The notes below the pieces were generated by a model. It saw only the letters and a program-made list of their open reading frames with translations. It had not been told where the DNA came from and searched no databases. 28,138 bases of DNA from a virus. The position numbers were made by a program, and so were the translations under genes. Each line of letters begins with the position of its first letter. The first letter of the stretch is position 1. The stretch lies in IMG/VR virus record IMGVR_UViG_3300022187_000173, positions 1 through 28,138 of that record. One strand, 5' to 3'. Below are positions 5,355 through 28,138 of this stretch, one piece after another.

Positions 5355-6650
5355 ATGGCCACATATACAACGCTCGCATTTGACAGCTCCAATAAACTCC
5401 CAATTGTCCCCTCTAGTAGTGATACGGTATCCATTCCGAATGATCTCACAGTAACAGGAGATACGGTCCTCGACGGTAATCTCCAGGTCAACGGAACAAC
5501 GACTACAGTTAACTCCGAGATCCAGACCGCCGATCGCTCGATCGTCATGAATTCAGACTATACCTCCGCCTCTGTGGAAGATGCGTATATCATGGCGGTT
5601 ACAGATCCTAATCCTCCCTCTACCGCCTGGACAAGTGACAATTATAATATTTTCATTGAAAATTCATCCAGTATCAAATTTCAAGGCTCGACCGCTCCCT
5701 CCAGTGATGCCGCATGGCCCTCCGCCGGGGATCTAGTCCTCATTAAAGGCAATCCGACCGCCGCCGATAATGGGATTTACGAAGTCGAGAACGTGGGGAC
5801 TTTTGGAGGCTCCGCCTATATTGTGATCAGAAACGGAGCGAGTACAGGCTCGCCGGCCTCTGATGTCGCCGGGTTCGTCAATACGACTTTAAATAACTAT
5901 GGCTCTGCGAGTAGTTTCCTCCCCTCCGGATTTGAAATTGTCCCCGTAAAAGTGACCGGTATTAAAACCGATAGTGCGAATGGAGCTATCCAGTCCGTAT
6001 CCGGAGACGCCGGCGGTTCTATGACAGTAACCACTCTTGCCGGGGGCGGAACGGCGGCGGATGATATAACCACAGGAGACGCCGCCGTTTCTATCAGTAC
6101 GACCTCGGGGAATGTCACTCTAAACGCTCCGACCGGATCAAGCGTCCGATTGAGCGTCAACTCGAGCGATCTATTAGTCGCCGATGGAGATAATCTCTCC
6201 GTCCAGGGTGGAAAAAATCTCGTCATTAATGATACAGCAGCTCTAGCCACTCAATTAACAGTAGTCGGATCTTCAGGGGTCGCCGCCTTTGAGGTTCTCG
6301 CCTTTAATACAAGTGGAGAGTTAGTCCGGGCAGATGCGGACGCCGGGTCTCTAATCTATAATGTCGCCGGGGTCTCTCTCGAGGCCGGTCCAAGTGGAGC
6401 CGCCGCCGTTAAGTCTGTAATGTCGACCCCTGGACAACTCGCCGGAATGACATTCACCTCTAATCCCTCGAGTGGAGATCAGGGCAAATATGTATATTTG
6501 AGTACCACTCCCGGACAGGTCACATTAACCGCCCCGGCGGCGAGTGGAGATCAGGTGGTCCGAGTAGGCTTATTAGCCTCTGCGAGCGCAATCAGCACCG
6601 GAGTTTATCCTGTACTGTTTCAGCCTCAATTCATGTACACAGTATCATAA
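5355..6650 (+). CDS. Fiber-like virion protein
   Basis: A 431-residue Ser/Thr/Gly/Ala-rich beta protein. Residues about 28-65 contain TVTGDTVLDGNLQVNGTTTT followed by VNSEIQTADRSIVMN, a module typical of phage head or tail fibers and other trimeric adhesins. Residues about 95-165 form a second beta domain, and residues about 290-431 repeat the domain found alone in the preceding gene. A good AGGAGG site precedes the ATG. Its place before the major capsid gene rather than after the tape measure suggests a head fiber or capsid-attached appendage rather than a tail fiber. That is an inference from gene order. Confidence 0.7.
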   Translation: MATYTTLAFDSSNKLPIVPSSSDTVSIPNDLTVTGDTVLDGNLQVNGTTTTVNSEIQTADRSIVMNSDYTSASVEDAYIMAVTDPNPPSTAWTSDNYNIFIENSSSIKFQGSTAPSSDAAWPSAGDLVLIKGNPTAADNGIYEVENVGTFGGSAYIVIRNGASTGSPASDVAGFVNTTLNNYGSASSFLPSGFEIVPVKVTGIKTDSANGAIQSVSGDAGGSMTVTTLAGGGTAADDITTGDAAVSISTTSGNVTLNAPTGSSVRLSVNSSDLLVADGDNLSVQGGKNLVINDTAALATQLTVVGSSGVAAFEVLAFNTSGELVRADADAGSLIYNVAGVSLEAGPSGAAAVKSVMSTPGQLAGMTFTSNPSSGDQGKYVYLSTTPGQVTLTAPAASGDQVVRVGLLASASAISTGVYPVLFQPQFMYTVS

Positions 6651-6660
6651 ATTTGGATCT

Positions 6661-6685
6661 GAGGGGCCTCTCCGGAGGTCCCCTC
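6661..6685 (+). promoter_or_regulatory. Stable hairpin with UNCG-type loop after the fiber-like gene
   Basis: Eleven bases after the fiber-like gene's stop, GAGGGG pairs with CCCCTC and CCTC with GAGG, interrupted by one bulged T. This closes a TCCG loop on a C-G pair, which as RNA is a cUCCGg member of the very stable UNCG tetraloops. No T tract follows on the + strand (TATACACC), so it is not a classical intrinsic terminator. It could protect a 3' end, mark an RNA processing site, or attenuate transcription before the capsid gene. Confidence 0.55.
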
Positions 6686-6822
6686 TATACACCACAAAAA
6701 AAACATGATATAACTTTTCCAAGGCGATAGCCTTAATAGCGAATTGGGAACGGTCGCACCGGTAGAACAGCAGATAACCCAGAGCACTCTCTTAATTCAC
6801 CGTTTTTTATAGGAGCCTTAAA
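6686..6822 (+). promoter_or_regulatory. Structured leader of the major capsid gene
   Basis: This is the non-coding remainder of a 172-base gap in an otherwise tightly packed block. It contains an A-run (6696-6703), a possible -10 hexamer TATAAC (6709-6714) with no clear -35, a small perfect hairpin AAGGC-GATA-GCCTT (6721-6734), and AACGGT (6749-6754) complementary to ACCGTT (6799-6804) next to a T run (6803-6808). The capsid ribosome site AGGAG lies about ten bases before the ATG. A separate promoter or leader for the most abundant virion protein is plausible; the exact promoter is not resolved. Confidence 0.4.
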
Positions 6823-7782
6823 ATGGCAGTAAATAACATTATTTCGCAAGGGTCACTCGAGACTGACTTGCGCCTGGCGGCGATGCTCTCTCAGGAGATC
6901 CGCCTCCTCCTCACCGATACCAACAACCTCCGCAATTCTCCATTTATTGATTTTATCGGATCGATTAATGGTCTCGGCTCAGATACCATTCGAGTATCTC
7001 TCGCCGGCTTAGACGGCCGAGACGTTTTCAGCGCTACCGCCGCCGAGGATACCGCAGTAGACGCCGCCTCAAATACAAGCCTTACCGATAACTCAGTAGA
7101 TATCGCAGTGGCTCGAGCCGCTCTCCGTTATCAAGTCTCCGACTTGGCTAATATTACCAATTTCCAAGGCGCCGCTAATGGAATTGATGTTTTCCGAATT
7201 GCTCAGAGCATGGCGGGATCATATGAGGCCTACTTCGCAGATCTCACCGCCGCCGCAATTGCGACCTTCACCACCTCCGCCGGCAATACAGGCGCCGCCT
7301 TTACTGTCGACGGCATGTTAGACGGTATTTTCGAGCTCGAGAAGGCAGATAGCAATCGAGGCGTTCCCGGTCCATTCGCCGCCGTCCTCCATCCAAAGCA
7401 GCTTACACAGCTCCAGGACGATCTCCGAAATGAAAGCAATTCTATTTTTGCGTATAGCCCGGCGACACTCGAGGCGATCTCCGCTAAGGGTCCCGGCTAT
7501 GTAGGACGCTTTTTGAATTGTGATCTCTACACCTCCTCATATATTGAGACCTCAGGTGGAGGCGATCTCCAGGGCGGTCTATTTGGAGTTGGAGCTCTCG
7601 GCTATGGAACCGGCGTTCCTCGAGACATGCCTGGAGCCTCTGACTTTATGGCTATGGGTGATATAGTCGTAGAATTCGAGCGTGATGCGGCGACCGCCTC
7701 CACGATCGTAATGGGACATTGCTATCTAGGTATCGGAGTTCTAGACGATAATCGAGGCGTTAAGCTCCTCTCATTAGCATAA
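6823..7782 (+). CDS. Major capsid protein
   Basis: A 319-residue protein, the size of an HK97-fold capsid subunit. It starts with a helical N-terminus (residues 10-45), followed by alternating beta segments and a helical domain with a run of acidic and Ala-rich sequence. It comes after the portal and scaffold genes and before the connector genes, and is the only gene in the head block with its own long leader and a strong AGGAG site, as expected for a highly expressed protein. No propeptide cleavage site or separate protease was identified. The assignment rests on order, size and composition. Confidence 0.78.
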   Translation: MAVNNIISQGSLETDLRLAAMLSQEIRLLLTDTNNLRNSPFIDFIGSINGLGSDTIRVSLAGLDGRDVFSATAAEDTAVDAASNTSLTDNSVDIAVARAALRYQVSDLANITNFQGAANGIDVFRIAQSMAGSYEAYFADLTAAAIATFTTSAGNTGAAFTVDGMLDGIFELEKADSNRGVPGPFAAVLHPKQLTQLQDDLRNESNSIFAYSPATLEAISAKGPGYVGRFLNCDLYTSSYIETSGGGDLQGGLFGVGALGYGTGVPRDMPGASDFMAMGDIVVEFERDAATASTIVMGHCYLGIGVLDDNRGVKLLSLA

Positions 7783-9442: not shown

Positions 9443-9891
9443 TGGCGATCTCAGTATCACAAATCAGATCGGCGATAGCCTCACAAATCACCTCCGCTCT
9501 CGGAGCTAGTGGGTTCACAGAGAGCCTCATTCCTCCGGAGTATTTTGGACGGAACGAGAATTCTGTAGCTCACAAGAGATTTGGGGTCCAGGTCTCTATC
9601 TCGAATGCATTTCCAGAGAGACAGAGGAGAGCGGTCGGAGTGATGATGGAGACTACAGCTCGGGTTAAATTTGCCTATCGTCTCAGACCAAAGGACGCAT
9701 ATCCGACCGATTACGATCTCGCCCTAGATACTGAGGAGGAGGTAATAGCCGCCGTCCTCAATTCATATCAGAGCATTAGACCAGGCGTAGAAATCCGGTT
9801 TTTCCGGAGCGCTCGAGACATAACGGATAGCATGGAGTACATGTTATTTGATATAGAATTCACGACCTATCACACTATATCCATAACTTAG
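9442..9891 (+). CDS. Tail terminator or tail completion protein (putative)
   Basis: A 149-residue alpha/beta protein located between the connector and the tail-tube candidate, the usual place for the terminator that caps the tail tube and joins it to the neck. The N-terminus is a helix (ISVSQIRSAIASQITSAL), followed by a beta domain with acidic helix segments (LALDTEEEVIAAVLNSY), and it ends with FDIEFTTYHTISI, a strand typical of this fold. No diagnostic motif was recognised. A head-closure protein is the main alternative. Confidence 0.5.
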   Translation: MAISVSQIRSAIASQITSALGASGFTESLIPPEYFGRNENSVAHKRFGVQVSISNAFPERQRRAVGVMMETTARVKFAYRLRPKDAYPTDYDLALDTEEEVIAAVLNSYQSIRPGVEIRFFRSARDITDSMEYMLFDIEFTTYHTISIT

Positions 9892-21701: not shown

Positions 21702-22110
21702 ATTAGGGCCCTTTTTCATACTTGGAGAGCCGGTCGCTATGGGTCGCCCTCGATTTACTCGGACCGGGCGTGTCTATACTCCGAAAAAAACGGAGGAGGC
21801 GCTCGAGGGAGTGGTCCAGGCTATCCGAGATTATGAAGATCACACGATGAAGATCGAGACGATCTCTAAACCTGTTCATGTCGTAATGGATTTTACACAC
21901 TCTCGACCAAAAAGAATGAGGAAGGGAGGGAGAGTGATTAAAGGGACTAAACCCGATCTCGATAATCTTATCAAATTAGTTCTGGACGGCATATCTAAAA
22001 GCGGGATCTGGACGGATGATAATATCGTCTCTCAAGTGACAGCAAAAAAATATTACGGCTCCACATTTGATAAACCATATACGGTTTTTTACATTTTCGA
22101 GGCGGAGTAA
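21694..22110 (+). CDS. rusA: RusA-family Holliday junction resolvase
   Basis: A 138-residue endonuclease that resolves branched DNA before packaging. The family core is present: a Gly-Arg-Pro-Arg stretch (GEPVAMGRPRFTRTGRVYTP, residues 11-30), then KPDLDN (86-91) with D88 and D90, K94 and D98, and WTDDN with D108/D109, matching the acidic metal-binding residues and lysine of RusA. ATG 21694 overlaps the HTH gene's end and has GGAGG upstream; an in-frame ATG at 21562 would lie wholly inside the HTH gene. Confidence 0.92.
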   Translation: MIRLGPFFILGEPVAMGRPRFTRTGRVYTPKKTEEALEGVVQAIRDYEDHTMKIETISKPVHVVMDFTHSRPKRMRKGGRVIKGTKPDLDNLIKLVLDGISKSGIWTDDNIVSQVTAKKYYGSTFDKPYTVFYIFEAE

Positions 22111-22961
22111 TGAGAGATCCTCGAGGGCTACATTTAACGCTTTATGCGTCCTGTTTCGACAATAAAGGCGGAGGGTTTACCCTCGAGCCCCCGGAGCGTC
22201 TCGGGACTATCATTCGGCCGGCCTCCTGGAGCAAGCCTCCGAAAAAGAAGGATCTCCTTTGTTGGAGCCCGGCGAGATACGCCCCTGGACAGCTCAGAGC
22301 TAAATCGAATGTGATCTCCGTCTCATGTCTAGTCTATGACATAGACGACGGAGCTCCGTTCGACATGCATAATCTATTTAGTGATTATCGCTATTATGCT
22401 CACTCGACGTTTTCACATAAACCAGAGGCTCCGAAATGGAGACTAATCCTCCCCTTAAAGCGTCCAGTTCCCGGAGCTGAATGGAGGAGAGCCTGGAGAG
22501 CCGGAAAAGAGATCTTTCAATCTCGGACTGGATGCGAGATAGACGGGGTTTGTTCGGACGCCTCCAGGCTCTACTATATAGGAACCAGAGAGGCCCTGGA
22601 GTTTTCAAATCTTCATAACGGCAAATACTTAAAACTCGACTATAGCCACATTCCAGAAAAGGAGGAGAAACCAAAACAAATACAAAAAACATATCAAAAA
22701 GCCGTTTATGCCTATAATGAGGACAAGGCGGTTTATATGTCTCTCAAGACTGATCCGGAGGCTCGGAGAAGGGCGGCGGAGGCATTAGGGGCCAAAATAT
22801 CAGAGGACGGGATAGCCCGTGGGATGATATGTCCATCCTGTGGACGGGAGGATCTATGGTTTGCTATAGATCCGACACAAAAATCTAGCGCCACATGTAA
22901 TCACCTGAATTCATGTGGATATTTCATAAACTTATATGATCTTTTACTGATGGAGAAATAA
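22110..22961 (+). CDS. Primase (prim-pol-like) with C-terminal zinc motif
   Basis: A 283-residue protein probably making primers for replication. D77 and D79 in VYDIDDG are likely catalytic metal ligands, and H98 in HSTFSH with R112 in PKWRLILPL follow the prim-pol pattern, as does the later DASRLYY. At the C-terminus C241, C244, C263 and C269 (CPSCG ... CNHLNSCG, CX2C-X18-CX5C) form a probable zinc ribbon. The middle is a charged linker (about residues 190-225). Its partner helicase is the next gene, overlapping by one base (TAATG). Some phages encode these two functions as one fusion. Confidence 0.78.
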   Translation: MRDPRGLHLTLYASCFDNKGGGFTLEPPERLGTIIRPASWSKPPKKKDLLCWSPARYAPGQLRAKSNVISVSCLVYDIDDGAPFDMHNLFSDYRYYAHSTFSHKPEAPKWRLILPLKRPVPGAEWRRAWRAGKEIFQSRTGCEIDGVCSDASRLYYIGTREALEFSNLHNGKYLKLDYSHIPEKEEKPKQIQKTYQKAVYAYNEDKAVYMSLKTDPEARRRAAEALGAKISEDGIARGMICPSCGREDLWFAIDPTQKSSATCNHLNSCGYFINLYDLLLMEK

Positions 22962-24241
22962 TGGATAGAGATCAAATCGCAGAATTAGCGGGCTTTTTAA
23001 AGCCTATAGATCGAGCCGAGGATAATGTCCTGGCTCAATTGGACCGAACCTCGGATCGGGTGGAGACTGACCACGCCGGGAGACAGGTCATACTCGAGAG
23101 AGGACGCCCTCTCAAGACCAAACTTAACATTTATCGAATTATGAGTTTAGATAGCCGCCTCCGAGATCGCTATCGCTATAATGAGTTCTCGGACGAAATA
23201 TGGGAGGATGATCACCTCCTCGAGGATCACCACATAACGGAGCTGTCTTTATGGCTCTCTCGGATCTATCGTGTCTCAATTGGAAAGGAGCCACTTTATG
23301 ATCTGATCATTCGGAGAGCTCGAGATAACTCTTATCATCCTCTCCAGGATTACCTCAAATCTTTAAAATGGGATAAGGCCGATCGGATCGGGTCCATTCT
23401 ACAAGAATATTGGGGAGTGGAGGATCGACCCCTCCTCCGGGAGATCGGTCTCCGGTGGGCTATCTCCTGTGTCGCTCGAGGCCTCCGCCCTGGATGCAAA
23501 GTGGATACCGTCCTCATTCTATGCGGTCCCCAGGGCGCAAAAAAATCCACCTCTCTCCGAGTGCTAGCCGGGGATGGATATTTCTCGGATAGTCACCTCG
23601 ATATTCGATCCAAGGATAGCTATCAGCTCATACACCAGAGCGGGGTCTGGATCTGGGAATTAGCGGAGTTTTATAGTCTCAAAAATCGAGATAATGAGAA
23701 CGCTAAGATGTTCCTCTCGAGCCCCTCCGATCGATACCGTCCGAGTTATGCTAAGGCTCCAGTCAAGAGACAGCGCTCTCTCGTTTTCACCTCTACGACT
23801 AATGAGCTCGCATTCTTGACAGATAGCACCGGGAACCGCCGTTACTGGCCTGTCAATACTGGAGCGATTGATATAGAGGGCCTCCGGAGAGACCGAGATC
23901 AGATCTGGGCGGAGGCCGTCTATCGCTTTAAAAATGGAGAGAGGTGGTGGCTCGAGGGAGATCATGAGACGGAGCTCCAGGAATATCAGAAGTCTTTTGT
24001 GGTGGACGATCCCTGGGTTCCCTCTATCCAGGGTCTCCTCTCGGAGTTCGGAGACACCGGCGTTCTAATGGATCAAATATTCGACCAATTAGGACTTGAG
24101 AAACCATATCGTAATTCAGGATACGCCAGGCGGATAACGGCTATCCTTCAATCCATAGGAGCGGAGCAATTACGGCCCTCCTCTCATCCTATGACTACTC
24201 AGAAACGGCCTCGAGTATGGAGATTAAAAACAAATGAGTAA
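22961..24241 (+). CDS. VirE-type (SF3-like) replicative helicase
   Basis: A 426-residue ATPase of the virulence-associated-protein-E family, the common helicase partner of small phage primases. Walker A is GPQGAKKST at 189-197, where Lys replaces the second Gly of the textbook GK[ST]; this variant is, to my knowledge, common in the family. Walker B follows at E233/E236 (VWIWELAEF), and STTNELAFLTDSTGNRRYWP (around 287-306) carries the conserved sensor Asn and the Arg-finger-like R. The region before it (residues 100-175) is helical, with a DYLKSLKWD motif. No separate loader or polymerase gene is visible. Confidence 0.88.
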   Translation: MDRDQIAELAGFLKPIDRAEDNVLAQLDRTSDRVETDHAGRQVILERGRPLKTKLNIYRIMSLDSRLRDRYRYNEFSDEIWEDDHLLEDHHITELSLWLSRIYRVSIGKEPLYDLIIRRARDNSYHPLQDYLKSLKWDKADRIGSILQEYWGVEDRPLLREIGLRWAISCVARGLRPGCKVDTVLILCGPQGAKKSTSLRVLAGDGYFSDSHLDIRSKDSYQLIHQSGVWIWELAEFYSLKNRDNENAKMFLSSPSDRYRPSYAKAPVKRQRSLVFTSTTNELAFLTDSTGNRRYWPVNTGAIDIEGLRRDRDQIWAEAVYRFKNGERWWLEGDHETELQEYQKSFVVDDPWVPSIQGLLSEFGDTGVLMDQIFDQLGLEKPYRNSGYARRITAILQSIGAEQLRPSSHPMTTQKRPRVWRLKTNE

Positions 24242-25220
24242 ATTTAAATTATCAGAGGAGGCCCTGGAGCGCCTCGAGGATGGATCCGAGTTAATCGTCT
24301 CGGTCTCCGGTGGAAAAGATAGTACGGCGACATGTCTATTCTTATTTGAGAATGGATATAGTACTTCCGATTTTAAACGCATATTTGCGGATACTGGATG
24401 GGAGAGCCTGGAGACATATAAATATCTCGATGAGCTCGAAAAGACGATCGGTCCAATTCACCGGGTTTCTAATATTACGCCCCTCGATCAATTTGATGAT
24501 GAGACCCAGGCTTTTATTCTGGAGGAGGAGGCTCGATTAGGGCGTCCAAGTGCCATGATCCGTCAAGTATTTAAAAAGTATATGTGGCCCTCATATTTTA
24601 CTAAGTGGTGTACTCGTGAATTAAAACTCGACCCTTTAAATCAATATTTTGAGACGCTCGAAAATGATTTTATTAATGTAGTCGGAGTTCGGAGAGAGGA
24701 GAGCCAGAAACGCTCTCAGGTCTCAGAATTTGAATGGAACCCACATGTGGACGCCTGGCTCTGGAGACCACTATATAATTGGACGGAGGAGGACGTTATC
24801 GACATTCACCACCGGTTCGGATTAGTGCCTAATCAGCTTTATTTAAATGGATTATCTCGGGTCGGGTGCTGGCCTTGTATTTATGCCGATAGTAAAGCAG
24901 CAATTAAGTTATTAGATCAATCTCGTATAGATTTAATCGATAGAGTAGAGCGATTTCTAGCACAAAAAACGAGAGCTCATTATCCGGCGGATCATAAAGC
25001 GCAAAATGTTCTAATCAATGTAGAGGAAAAATTTGGATTTCTGACACGCCCCTTTTATCGGAGAGGGCCTATCCAAGAGGTCTATAAATGGAGCCGAGAC
25101 GAATTATCAGGACAGCAATTAAAGCTTTTTGATATGGAGACAAAAGTTAACCCAGGGTGCGCTAAATGGGGGCTCTGTGATTTCACCGGCTCGATCCGTA
25201 ATTTCGGAGGTGATCAATGA
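24234..25220 (+). CDS. PAPS reductase-like PP-loop protein
   Basis: A 328-residue PP-loop ATP pyrophosphatase, the fold of PAPS reductase and DndC. SGGKDS (25-30) is the PP-loop, and WCTRELK (125-131), VGVRREES (150-157), PLYNWTEEDV and RVGCWPC (209-215) are family motifs. Cysteines C126, C212, C215, C309 and C315 could ligate an Fe-S cluster. It acts by adenylating a substrate, but no DNA-sulfur partner (DndA, D or E) is seen here. It lies between helicase and exonuclease, so a role in DNA modification is more likely than sulfur metabolism. The start overlaps the helicase stop by eight bases. Confidence 0.86.
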   Translation: MSKFKLSEEALERLEDGSELIVSVSGGKDSTATCLFLFENGYSTSDFKRIFADTGWESLETYKYLDELEKTIGPIHRVSNITPLDQFDDETQAFILEEEARLGRPSAMIRQVFKKYMWPSYFTKWCTRELKLDPLNQYFETLENDFINVVGVRREESQKRSQVSEFEWNPHVDAWLWRPLYNWTEEDVIDIHHRFGLVPNQLYLNGLSRVGCWPCIYADSKAAIKLLDQSRIDLIDRVERFLAQKTRAHYPADHKAQNVLINVEEKFGFLTRPFYRRGPIQEVYKWSRDELSGQQLKLFDMETKVNPGCAKWGLCDFTGSIRNFGGDQ

Positions 25221-26087: not shown

Positions 26088-27199
26088 TGAATATTGAGAG
26101 ACCCAAATATCAAATATTCAGAGGTGATAACCGGGAGACCTTAAAGCGCCTCCCGGACGCCTCGATCGATGCAGTAATAACGGATCCGCCTTATGAGATC
26201 GCCCTGGGTCATGTTAAGTCCTGGGACAGCAGCGGGATAGCGCATGATCCGGAATTGTGGAGCCAAATACTCCGAGTTTTAAAGCCTGGAGGACATTTGG
26301 TCGCTTTTTCGGCTACTCGTACTTATCACCGGCTCGCCGTCTCAATAGAGGACGCCGGGTTCGAGCTCCGAGACATGATCTCTTGGATCTACTCTCAAGG
26401 GTTCCCTAAATCTCAAAATATAGCGCTCTCCATAGATAAACAGGAGGGGCTCATAAAGCAGAGAGGAAAGGGCGCACTTAAACACATGACAAACCAGGCG
26501 AGGCCAAAGAGTGAGGATGGAGCTGATCTCCAGACCGGGCTCCCTCCTTATGAGCCTAAACACTCGGACGCCATTAAATGGAATGGATGGGGGACTAATC
26601 TTAAGCCGTCTCAGGAGCCCGCCGTCCTCGCTCGCAAGCCTCTCCAGGAGAGCTCTATAACGGCTCAAATGAGAGCGACCGGAACCGGAGCTATCAATAT
26701 AGACGCCTCGAGACATGCTCAAGGGGAGGACGCCTGGCCTTTTATGGATCCGAGAGCTAAAATTAATCATCCTCTCGGACTATGGCCGGGGAATATCTAC
26801 TATTGTCCTAAACCCTCCGCCTCCGAGAGAGAGAAAGGTCTAGATCACCTCAAATCTCAGGAGTGCAAATCTAAGTTTAATCTCGGGAATGGAGAGGGCG
26901 CTAGATTTGATGGTCACGCCTCCCCTAATCGAGCTAATCATCATGCTACAGTCAAGCCGATAAAAATCCTTAGATGGTTAATCCGGCTCCTATGTCCTCC
27001 GGGGGGAGTGGTCCTCGATCCATTTGCCGGCTCTGGTTCCACTCTCGCCGCCTCCATCCTCGAGGGGTTCTCCTGTATAGGTTGTGAGCTCCAGGACGAA
27101 TATATCCCAATAATCGAGGGGCGAGCCGATCAAGCTATCGAGGACTATCTGGATAGCAAGGCACAATTAACGCTCTGGGACTATCTGGAGGGTCTATGA
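26087..27199 (+). CDS. Beta-class DNA methyltransferase
   Basis: A 370-residue SAM-dependent DNA methyltransferase. The catalytic DPPY (33-36, motif IV) is near the N-terminus and DPFAGSGST (311-319, motif I, SAM binding) near the C-terminus; this motif order defines the beta class, which methylates the exocyclic amino group of adenine or cytosine (N6-adenine or N4-cytosine). A long middle insert (about residues 115-260) probably holds the target-recognition region. No restriction enzyme is next to it, so it is an orphan enzyme, likely protecting phage DNA or marking it. Target sequence unknown. Confidence 0.92.
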   Translation: MNIERPKYQIFRGDNRETLKRLPDASIDAVITDPPYEIALGHVKSWDSSGIAHDPELWSQILRVLKPGGHLVAFSATRTYHRLAVSIEDAGFELRDMISWIYSQGFPKSQNIALSIDKQEGLIKQRGKGALKHMTNQARPKSEDGADLQTGLPPYEPKHSDAIKWNGWGTNLKPSQEPAVLARKPLQESSITAQMRATGTGAINIDASRHAQGEDAWPFMDPRAKINHPLGLWPGNIYYCPKPSASEREKGLDHLKSQECKSKFNLGNGEGARFDGHASPNRANHHATVKPIKILRWLIRLLCPPGGVVLDPFAGSGSTLAASILEGFSCIGCELQDEYIPIIEGRADQAIEDYLDSKAQLTLWDYLEGL

Positions 27200-27477
27200 T
27201 GATCCGATATTTGATCCATGAATGGAGAAAGTCTCGAGGGCTCTCTAATCGTCAACTCGCCGAGGAGCTGGGGATCCATGTCGAGACGATCTATAAATGG
27301 AGAAACCGAGGAGCGGTCCCCTCTCGCTTTACTTGTCAATGTATCGCTACTCTGTGGGCTCGAGAGGGTAATCTCTCCAGGGCAGAGGAAAAGGAAATAT
27401 TCGAGACCCTCCTGGATCTCCGAGATTTTGAATTGACATTCCGGAGGAGATGGAGATATAAACCTCTCAGGATTTAA
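27199..27477 (+). CDS. Small HTH DNA-binding protein
   Basis: A 92-residue protein with a helix-turn-helix at about residues 13-38 (RGLSNRQLAEELGIHVETIY, then KWRNRGAVPS), followed by a basic, Trp/Arg-rich C-terminal part. I prefer ATG 27199, which overlaps the methyltransferase TGA as TGATG and lies six bases after GGAGGG (27187-27192); ATG 27196 is the alternative. It is the last gene of the early operon, immediately before the origin region, making it a candidate binder of the TGTCCA repeats there or a late-gene regulator. This link is inferred from position only. Confidence 0.78.
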   Translation: MIRYLIHEWRKSRGLSNRQLAEELGIHVETIYKWRNRGAVPSRFTCQCIATLWAREGNLSRAEEKEIFETLLDLRDFELTFRRRWRYKPLRI

Positions 27478-27510
27478 TATCCAAATCTCCGTCAATAGAT
27501 GAAAATCTTT

Positions 27511-27541
27511 AAAGCTCTGGACGCCCCTCCGGAGCTTTTTT
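27511..27541 (+). terminator. Intrinsic terminator of the rightward early operon
   Basis: AAAGCTCTGGA (27511-27521) pairs with TCCGGAGCTTT (27528-27538), an 11-bp stem with one T-G wobble and loop CGCCCC, followed by TTT (27539-27541). It is 34 bases after the HTH gene's stop and ends the replication operon before the origin. The reverse strand carries TTTAAAGATTTT after the stem, so it may also stop leftward transcription. Confidence 0.9.
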
Positions 27542-27596
27542 GGTTATATTACTGGAGAGAGATGGAAAGCCCGTCTTTCATATGTAAGGGAAAGGT

Positions 27597-27622
27597 GAGG
27601 CCCAGGATCCGTCCTGGGTCTC
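27597..27622. other. Stable hairpin next to the origin
   Basis: GAGGCCCAGGA (27597-27607) pairs with TCCTGGGTCTC (27612-27622) over 11 positions with one G-T wobble, closing a TCCG loop. It lacks a T tract on either side, so it is not a typical terminator. It lies between the operon terminator and the origin repeats and might belong to a small RNA, a priming transcript or a protein-binding dyad. Confidence 0.5.
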
Positions 27623-27636
27623 TATCGTTTGGAGGC

Positions 27637-27679
27637 GTCCAAAACTTTTAATAAATGTATATATAGAAAAGTTTTGGAC
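27637..27679. repeat. 13-bp inverted repeat around an AT-rich spacer
   Basis: GTCCAAAACTTTT (27637-27649) and AAAAGTTTTGGAC (27667-27679) are perfect reverse complements. The 17-base spacer (27650-27666) has only two G/C bases. Both arms contain the GTCCA core of the repeats further right. It abuts the first DnaA-box cluster and could be the easily melted segment of the origin or a cruciform-forming protein site. Confidence 0.75.
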
Positions 27680-27682
27680 ATC

Positions 27683-27727
27683 TTATCCACAGAGTTATCC
27701 ACAGAGTTATCCACAGAGTTATCCACA
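27683..27727 (+). repeat. DnaA-box array 1 (four perfect boxes)
   Basis: TTATCCACA starts at 27683, 27695, 27707 and 27719, exactly 12 bp apart, each joined by GAG. All four match the bacterial DnaA consensus without change, and they share one orientation. This marks the region as a site where host DnaA should bind. Confidence 0.9.
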
Positions 27728-27772
27728 GGCTAAACGCCCTCTCTGTCTATAATAGATAGCTATCTCGAAAAG

Positions 27773-27817
27773 TTATCCACAGAGTTATCCACAGAGTTAT
27801 CCATAGGTTTATCCCTA
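27773..27817 (+). repeat. DnaA-box array 2 (two perfect, two degenerate boxes)
   Basis: TTATCCACA at 27773 and 27785, then TTATCCATA at 27797 and TTATCCCTA at 27809 continue the 12-bp period in the same orientation. The array is 54 bp after the last box of array 1. The graded decay to weaker boxes is a feature of origins, where low-affinity sites fill last. Confidence 0.85.
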
Positions 27818-27822
27818 GGGAA

Positions 27823-28061
27823 TGTCCAAGCATGTCCAACTATGTCCAGGATCTAATGGACAGGTCGATCTCGATAAACACTAGATCGTTTATATAATGT
27901 CCAACATGTCCAAGAAAAAACCTAAAAAGAAAATTTACATAGATATAAACCCATTATTAATTAGAATTTGGTGGACATGTTGGACATTCCCTCGAGGATC
28001 CAGTCCTCAAGGGGGTTCGAATGTCCATTAGATCATGGACCTATCTTGGACGCCTTTGGAC
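27823..28061. repeat. TGTCCA iteron-like array
   Basis: Exact TGTCCA or TGGACA hexamers start at 27823, 27833, 27843, 27857, 27898, 27907, 27972, 27981 and 28022; a tenth is at 27675 in the inverted-repeat arm. Several are extended to TGTCCAA. TGGAC cores at 28036, 28047 and 28057 continue the series. The spacing is often 9-11 bp, one helical turn, so the sites face the same side of the DNA. No protein that binds this sequence is known from the window. Confidence 0.85.
27896..27988. repeat. 17-bp perfect inverted repeat flanking an AT-rich segment
   Basis: AATGTCCAACATGTCCA (27896-27912) is the exact reverse complement of TGGACATGTTGGACATT (27972-27988). Each arm holds two TGTCCA cores. The 59 bases between the arms are strongly A/T (lysine- and isoleucine-like codons by chance) and may be a DNA-unwinding element. 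Confidence 0.85.
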
Positions 28062-28064
28062 GGG

Positions 28065-28138
28065 CTATTTTTTGGCTCGGTCTCTCTCGATCTGGCGTTT
28101 CTGTGCCTTAGCAAATCTCCGGCCTGGATTACCTCCCC
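28065..28138 (-). CDS. C-terminal end of a leftward gene (partial, uncertain)
   Basis: Reading leftward from the window edge, an open frame gives 23 residues (GGNPGRRFAKAQKRQIERDR, then AKK) and a TAG at 28067-28065. It is strongly basic and helical, with Arg and Glu codons (AGA, CGA, GAG) typical of this phage. If real, its 5' part lies beyond the window and its transcript would run into the origin. A + strand frame from 28035 is also open, so the strand choice is tentative. Function unknown. Confidence 0.35.
   Translation of the reverse strand, partial: GGNPGRRFAKAQKRQIERDRAKK

Follow-up and report, generated by a model that had tools for sequence, protein, structure and literature searches.

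The region at about positions 27,683–28,061 of the window (the whole stretch of viral DNA that was analysed, a linear record of 28,138 bp) is probably a composite phage origin of replication, where a VapE-like helicase of the phage would act on short GTCCA iterons and the DnaA protein of the host on neighbouring DnaA boxes. This interpretation is based upon a number of characteristics that can be read from the sequence, viz. two arrays of DnaA boxes, a set of iterons in mirror order, the coincidence of their dyad with the weakest DNA, the joint conservation of these elements in related phages, and the family to which the helicase belongs.

Eight DnaA boxes, all on the plus strand, form two runs of four boxes with an exact period of 12 bp. 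In array 1 (27683–27727), the sequence TTATCCACA starts at positions 27683, 27695, 27707, and 27719 with GAG as the spacer, and in array 2 (27773–27817) it starts at 27773 and 27785 and is followed by TTATCCATA at 27797 and TTATCCCTA at 27809; six of the boxes are perfect, one has one mismatch and one has two. The last start of array 1 is 54 bp from the first start of array 2, and the spacer between the two arrays (27731–27772) is 90% identical to that in the relative L233, where the final box of array 2 is also TTATCCCTA. The number, orientation, period and positions of these boxes agree with what was reported in an earlier sequence-only reading of this DNA. Their arrangement is beyond chance: under a first-order Markov null of the window, 0.13 perfect boxes are expected per 28 kb as against the six observed, all in one orientation, and 400 simulations yielded at most two perfect boxes and no 12-bp tandem pair.

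The sequence-only reading had further proposed that a 12-bp step would place successive DnaA molecules on slowly rotating faces of the DNA, giving an unusual filament geometry. This proposal is not supported by an unbiased scan of IMG/VR for three boxes separated by any gaps of 0–28 bp, in which the spacings peaked at 11 (92), 12 (50), 21–23 (79), and 32–34 bp (38). Steps of 11–12 bp and their multiples thus prevail in viral contigs, 12 bp being the second commonest step, and these values suggest that the boxes of viral arrays are positioned on approximately the same side of the helix. In IMG/VR, at least 119 viral contigs have three perfect boxes with a 12-bp step, compared with no matches for a reversed-motif control, and the array in the window is hence a member of a common kind. 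Runs of four perfect boxes at this period are present in 19 viral contigs and, among the 84,980 species of the GTDB genome set, in 14 contigs, a spread that does not indicate any particular host. Tandem DnaA-box arrays were also observed in a noncoding stretch of the T7-like phages Berlinvirus P483 (L257) and VB_Ship_A7 (L258), in the latter about 100 bp from the end of the record, and a bacterial contig from Alysiella crassa (L238, positions 6704–7141) has three arrays of 4–5 boxes in alternating orientation.

Just downstream of the DnaA arrays are twelve GTCCA/TGGAC sites, which were overlooked in the sequence-only reading. The left outer iterons (27822–27861, plus strand) consist of GTCCA at 27824, 27834, and 27844 and an inverted copy at 27857, and they are followed by the left inner iterons (27897–27914, plus strand) with GTCCA at 27899 and 27908. 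The right inner iterons (27972–27985, minus strand) have TGGAC at 27972 and 27981, in mirror positions to 27908 and 27899, respectively, and the right outer iterons (28021–28061, minus strand), consisting of GTCCA on the plus strand at 28023 and TGGAC at 28036, 28047, and 28057, mirror those at 27857, 27844, 27834, and 27824. The spacings between sites are 10, 10, 13, 42, and 9 bp on the left and 9, 42, 13, 11, and 10 bp on the right, and all six of the six possible pairs are mirrored about a centre at approximately 27,942–27,942.5. When the sites were placed at random, six mirror pairs were obtained in 8 of 20,000 trials. Additionally, in an unsupervised search of all 5-mers, the only centre within the 28 kb with at least four mirrored pairs was at 27,942.5, and no such centre was found in any of 20 Markov sequences. 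The stability of the DNA was calculated from nearest-neighbour energies for 60-bp stretches across the whole window, and the least stable of them (27911–27970; 80% A+T, compared with 51% for the window) is centred on the dyad of the iterons, making it a candidate DNA unwinding element. A perfect 13-bp inverted repeat with an A+T-rich loop (27637–27679), located right before the arrays, was also considered for this role, but it was set aside because it is missing from L233.

These elements are also retained in related phages. The relative L232/L093 is nearly identical to the window, L233/L084 exhibits about 78% nucleotide identity to it, and L024 and L069 about 65%. Two DnaA arrays are present in all of these lineages, with 8 boxes in L233, 8 in L024, and 9 in L069, and in these three relatives the succession of arrays, mirrored GTCCA sites and weak centre is unchanged and is bounded by an HTH gene on one side and a convergent ORF of the minus strand on the other, with some of the sites in L024 and L069 being degenerate. 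The centres of the dyad and of the weak spot are at 9694 and 9690 in L233, 12594 and 12593 in L024, and 656.5 and 667 in L069. When the window is compared with L233, the arrays, the spacer and most of the iteron blocks are 85–94% identical (94% for the array 1 region, 27683–27730), whereas identity is 55% in the leader (27480–27682), 55 and 71% in the intervening stretches, 75% in the A+T-rich element, and 71% in the right outer iteron block. The distance between the two arrays is 54 bp in the window, 54 in L233, 44 in L024, and 45 in L069, a difference of approximately one helical turn. The boxes, the mirror sites and the weak spot are thus conserved jointly while their flanks diverge. Among 50,697 phage records no close DNA relative of the window was detected, apart from the array itself in a microvirus, and its large terminase has weak relatives only. 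A microvirus, the single-stranded DNA phage bajarodmic virus 162 (L260), carries a DnaA-box array (1794–1837) adjoining its replication initiator gene.

The early genes of the window encode an Erf/Rad52-type annealing protein, RusA, a primase-like protein, a VapE-like helicase, a protein resembling the exonuclease subunit of DNA polymerase, a DNA methyltransferase and an HTH protein. The statement in the sequence-only reading that no initiator gene is visible is therefore probably wrong, as the VapE-like helicase (22961–24241, plus strand; PF05272, E = 3.7e-70; PDB 7pds, a VapE protein, E = 1.7e-35) is a candidate initiator. The gene for the primase-like protein, which has partial matches to PHROG primases, adjoins that for the helicase (22110–22961, plus strand). 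On its other side, a PAPS-reductase-like gene with SspD/DndC-like matches (24234–25220) is missing at the corresponding place in L233, where the neighbouring genes are conserved. The candidate binder of the iterons is the C-terminal domain of the helicase (residues 347–426; 23999–24238, plus strand), which is predicted by AlphaFold to adopt a winged-helix fold. Modelled alone, this domain (mean pLDDT 75.6; helix-helix-helix-strand-strand) matched winged-helix DNA-binding domains with a best Z of 7.6, with no family standing out, a level that corresponds to a common fold. A sequence search with the C-terminus alone revealed no solved relative, and in the full-length model of the helicase the core was poorly predicted.

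The covariation of this domain with the iterons was examined in two pairs of phages. Between L024 and L069 the N-terminus and core of the helicase are 94–95% identical, whereas its last 80 residues are only 69% identical, and the sequences flanking the iterons differ; the window and L233 share the sequence ATGTCCA, and their helicase C-termini are 85% identical. A rival candidate for binding to the GTCCA sites is the Cro/CI-type HTH protein (27196–27477, plus strand) encoded directly upstream. Because proteins of this type are often associated with symmetric operators, the whole region could be regulatory, with DnaA and the HTH protein controlling transcription and the GTCCA sites serving as operators. 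However, the HTH protein is identical at 81 of 87 positions in L024 and L069 despite the change in the iteron flanks, which argues against its being the GTCCA binder. In addition, a terminator-like hairpin with a T run (an inverted repeat at 27511–27545, plus strand) closes the early operon ahead of the region, and in L233, whose downstream gene is complete, the region is bordered by a plus-strand gene with such a hairpin and, on the other side, by the 3' end of an ORF that runs convergently on the minus strand; it does not precede the start of any gene. An operator of twelve sites that extend over 240 bp and surround the weakest DNA would also be unusual, and a regulatory role for the region is considered very unlikely. 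The convergent ORF, which is conserved, is characterized by the motif AWALWGG and belongs to no Pfam family, is located on the minus strand at 9817–10173 in L233 and at 28065–28138 in the window, where it is cut; in L024, and apparently also in L055, it is again present beyond the iterons.

Mirror-image iterons are also found with VapE-type helicases in other phages. In Marinobacter phage PS3 (L261), twelve GGTCA sites are arranged as mirror images immediately beyond the VapE-type gene (35165–35417; spacing 10, 24, 32, 9, 9 | 81 | 9, 9, 32, 24, 9). This stretch is the predicted origin of this named phage, its predicted dyad being at 35,291. Pseudomonas phage LPPA36 (L264) has a mirror layout of TGTCC sites downstream of its helicase gene (6549–6816) with a spacing close to that in PS3, and both of these phages are without perfect DnaA boxes in the DNA examined. 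Downstream of its helicase gene, L011 has CAGAT iterons in mirror order (10, 11, 10 | 192 | 10, 11, 10) beside DnaA arrays, the boxes facing away from the A+T-rich centre, opposite to their orientation in the window, and L111 has TTCACAC mirror iterons and DnaA arrays in a similar position relative to its helicase gene. CAGAT iterons also flank the weakest DNA in L055, and L109 and L100 have TGTCAC sites with common spacings adjoining DnaA arrays. Under a strict test, no convincing mirror motif was detected in Javan100, BT61P1, QT1, StAB, BKO1-1, S-LBS1, Haddon, or U5. The design thus recurs in some of the VapE phages. No perfect DnaA box was found in the DNA examined from 11 VapE-phage records or loci of the named phage collection, indicating that origins of this type do not generally include DnaA and that the DnaA array is an optional addition to them. 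Mirrored 5-mers were rejected as a general mark of phages with DnaA arrays: they were present at 36 of 218 such loci, and since many of these are palindromic AGATC/CTTAA repeats or repeats within ORFs, our claim regarding mirror iterons is limited to VapE phages. Clusters of the AGATC/CTTAA repeats lie beside weak DNA in a number of contigs with DnaA arrays (L008, L020, L043, L051, L068, and others; also L125, L126, L195, L196, and L210), and it is possible that they represent another type of origin with a different initiator.

These observations bear upon two other roles for the DnaA boxes. The region could be an origin of a purely host type, in which DnaA alone melts the DNA and loads the host DnaB, the VapE helicase aids only in elongation, and some other phage protein makes use of the iterons. 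The dense and conserved DnaA arrays, the position of the weak spot 3' of the boxes, and the TTATT motifs within the A+T-rich element are consistent with this possibility, but mirror iterons accompany VapE helicases even in PS3 and LPPA36, which have no DnaA boxes, and the C-terminus of the helicase varies together with the iterons. For these reasons, such an origin seems decidedly improbable. Alternatively, as also suggested in the sequence-only reading, the arrays could be a decoy that titrates host DnaA and delays or blocks initiation in the host, with the GTCCA sites serving some other purpose. The datA locus is likewise a cluster of DnaA boxes, extra copies of which impair initiation in E. 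coli (PMC5742627), and eight boxes at a high phage copy number could sequester DnaA. Although titration of this kind may occur, it accounts for neither the iterons nor the weak spot: it provides no reason why four lineages should keep the arrays beside mirror iterons and the least stable DNA, or why a like arrangement with other iterons exists in L011 and L111. A decoy as the main function of the region is thus unlikely. The recruitment of host DnaA, which the sequence-only reading had also proposed, is the best-supported of the predicted uses of these boxes in view of their conservation in three relatives and their location beside the mirror iterons and the least stable DNA.

The location of the region within the genome raises a further alternative. 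Two related contigs, G001 and G003, start shortly before the small terminase gene and stop at a common point some 1 kb downstream of the iterons, and the origin may therefore lie near a genome end; judging from contig ends only, the right end of the genome is probably near the array. The end of L024 (13430–13457) has what resembles a sequencing-adapter sequence, CTGTCTCTTATACACATCT, at a point that nearly coincides with the end of L233 and may mark a physical genome end. Hence, a role as an end-related element, marking a stop in DNA injection or a site for packaging or end processing, as proposed for the injection stop signal of T5, was considered as a minor alternative. The T5 signal has been described as consisting of repeats and DnaA boxes (PMC13250531), and T5-like and T7-like phages carry such boxes. 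However, T5-type pre-early genes were not found among the proteins scanned, the position of the genome ends is inferred solely from those of contigs, and a role of this kind leaves unexplained both the presence of mirror iterons at the weakest DNA and their link with the helicase. It is therefore regarded as highly improbable. The cumulative GC skew, for which the sequence-only reading had proposed a search for a minimum here, instead reaches its maximum near the end of the contig, at position 27,677, and its minimum at 7,553, and it gives no support for a bidirectional origin at this site.

Of the known systems, the composite origin proposed here most closely concerns those that employ initiator helicases. 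In SaPI and SCCmec elements, the helicases Rep and Cch2, respectively, use their C-terminal domains to bind to short iterons at the origin, and SaPI Rep apparently does so as two hexamers (PMC7581432). The window resembles these systems in having an initiator-type helicase of a mobile element, very short repeated sites and a C-terminal domain as the expected binder, and PDB 7pds is a VapE protein related to its helicase. As in VapE/SaPI-type origins, a helicase of the VapE, D5, or DUF927 type is present together with multiple short iterons, here in mirror arrangement around an A+T-rich stretch. In contrast to these systems, the window is from a phage and not from a satellite, and two DnaA arrays are added. 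Moreover, in PS3, LPPA36, L011, and L111 the origin is directly or closely downstream of the helicase gene, whereas in the window the two are 3.4 kb apart; hence, we describe the window as working like the VapE/SaPI type without assigning it to that type.

In the iteron plasmids P1, F, RK2, and pSC101, DnaA boxes beside iterons are usual (PMC4980987), and the window shares with them the adjoining iterons, DnaA boxes and A+T-rich element. However, the iterons of these plasmids are direct repeats on one side, while those in the window are mirrored on both sides of the weak DNA and their probable binder is itself a helicase; no plasmid-type Rep family was found among the early proteins scanned, nor among the genes just past the end of the window in L233. 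The several head-to-tail, graded DnaA boxes near an A+T-rich element are similar to those of a bacterial oriC, from which the region differs in being part of a phage genome, in the absence of a GC-skew minimum and in its additional phage-specific iterons. With datA and other DnaA-titration loci, the role of which is to sequester DnaA or to stimulate the hydrolysis of ATP bound to it, the region has in common the cluster of DnaA boxes, but not the mirror iterons and the least stable DNA. In the first-step-transfer region of T5-like phages, the injection stop signal of which halts the transfer of DNA part-way, DnaA boxes and noncoding repeats likewise lie close to an end of the genome, but the window provides no evidence of a two-step transfer.

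Based upon these results, we infer that replication would start in this region by the following series of events. The VapE-like helicase would bind to the twelve GTCCA iterons by means of its C-terminal winged helix and assemble into two complexes that face each other head to head across the A+T-rich centre. The DnaA of the host, which would also be needed, would occupy the eight boxes of the two adjacent head-to-tail arrays and bend or strain the DNA; this would assist the melting of the A+T-rich element and allow the loading of the helicase onto both strands. The primase-like protein encoded beside the helicase and the host polymerase would act next.

The two parts of this design are already known separately, DnaA boxes beside iterons in plasmids and self-loading helicases that read iterons in satellites and cassettes. 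No description of the two together in a phage was found in the open-access literature that was searched, an absence that is weak evidence in itself. We tentatively suggest, while regarding the matter as somewhat short of an even chance, that there is a class of tailed phages whose origin is fired by two unrelated initiators, viz. a self-loading VapE helicase placed in mirror fashion and host DnaA on a phased array. In such a class, the iteron word would vary with the C-terminus of the helicase while the design remained constant, and the DnaA module would be optional and may tie replication of the phage to the state of initiation in its host. These results provide a testable rule for locating the origins of VapE phages, namely a search for the weakest DNA with short repeats in mirror order on either side, and since PS3 and LPPA36 are named phages with known hosts, the iteron design can be tested at the bench. 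Some VapE phages may pair a self-loading helicase with host DnaA, which raises the question of what DnaA adds to the origins of these phages.
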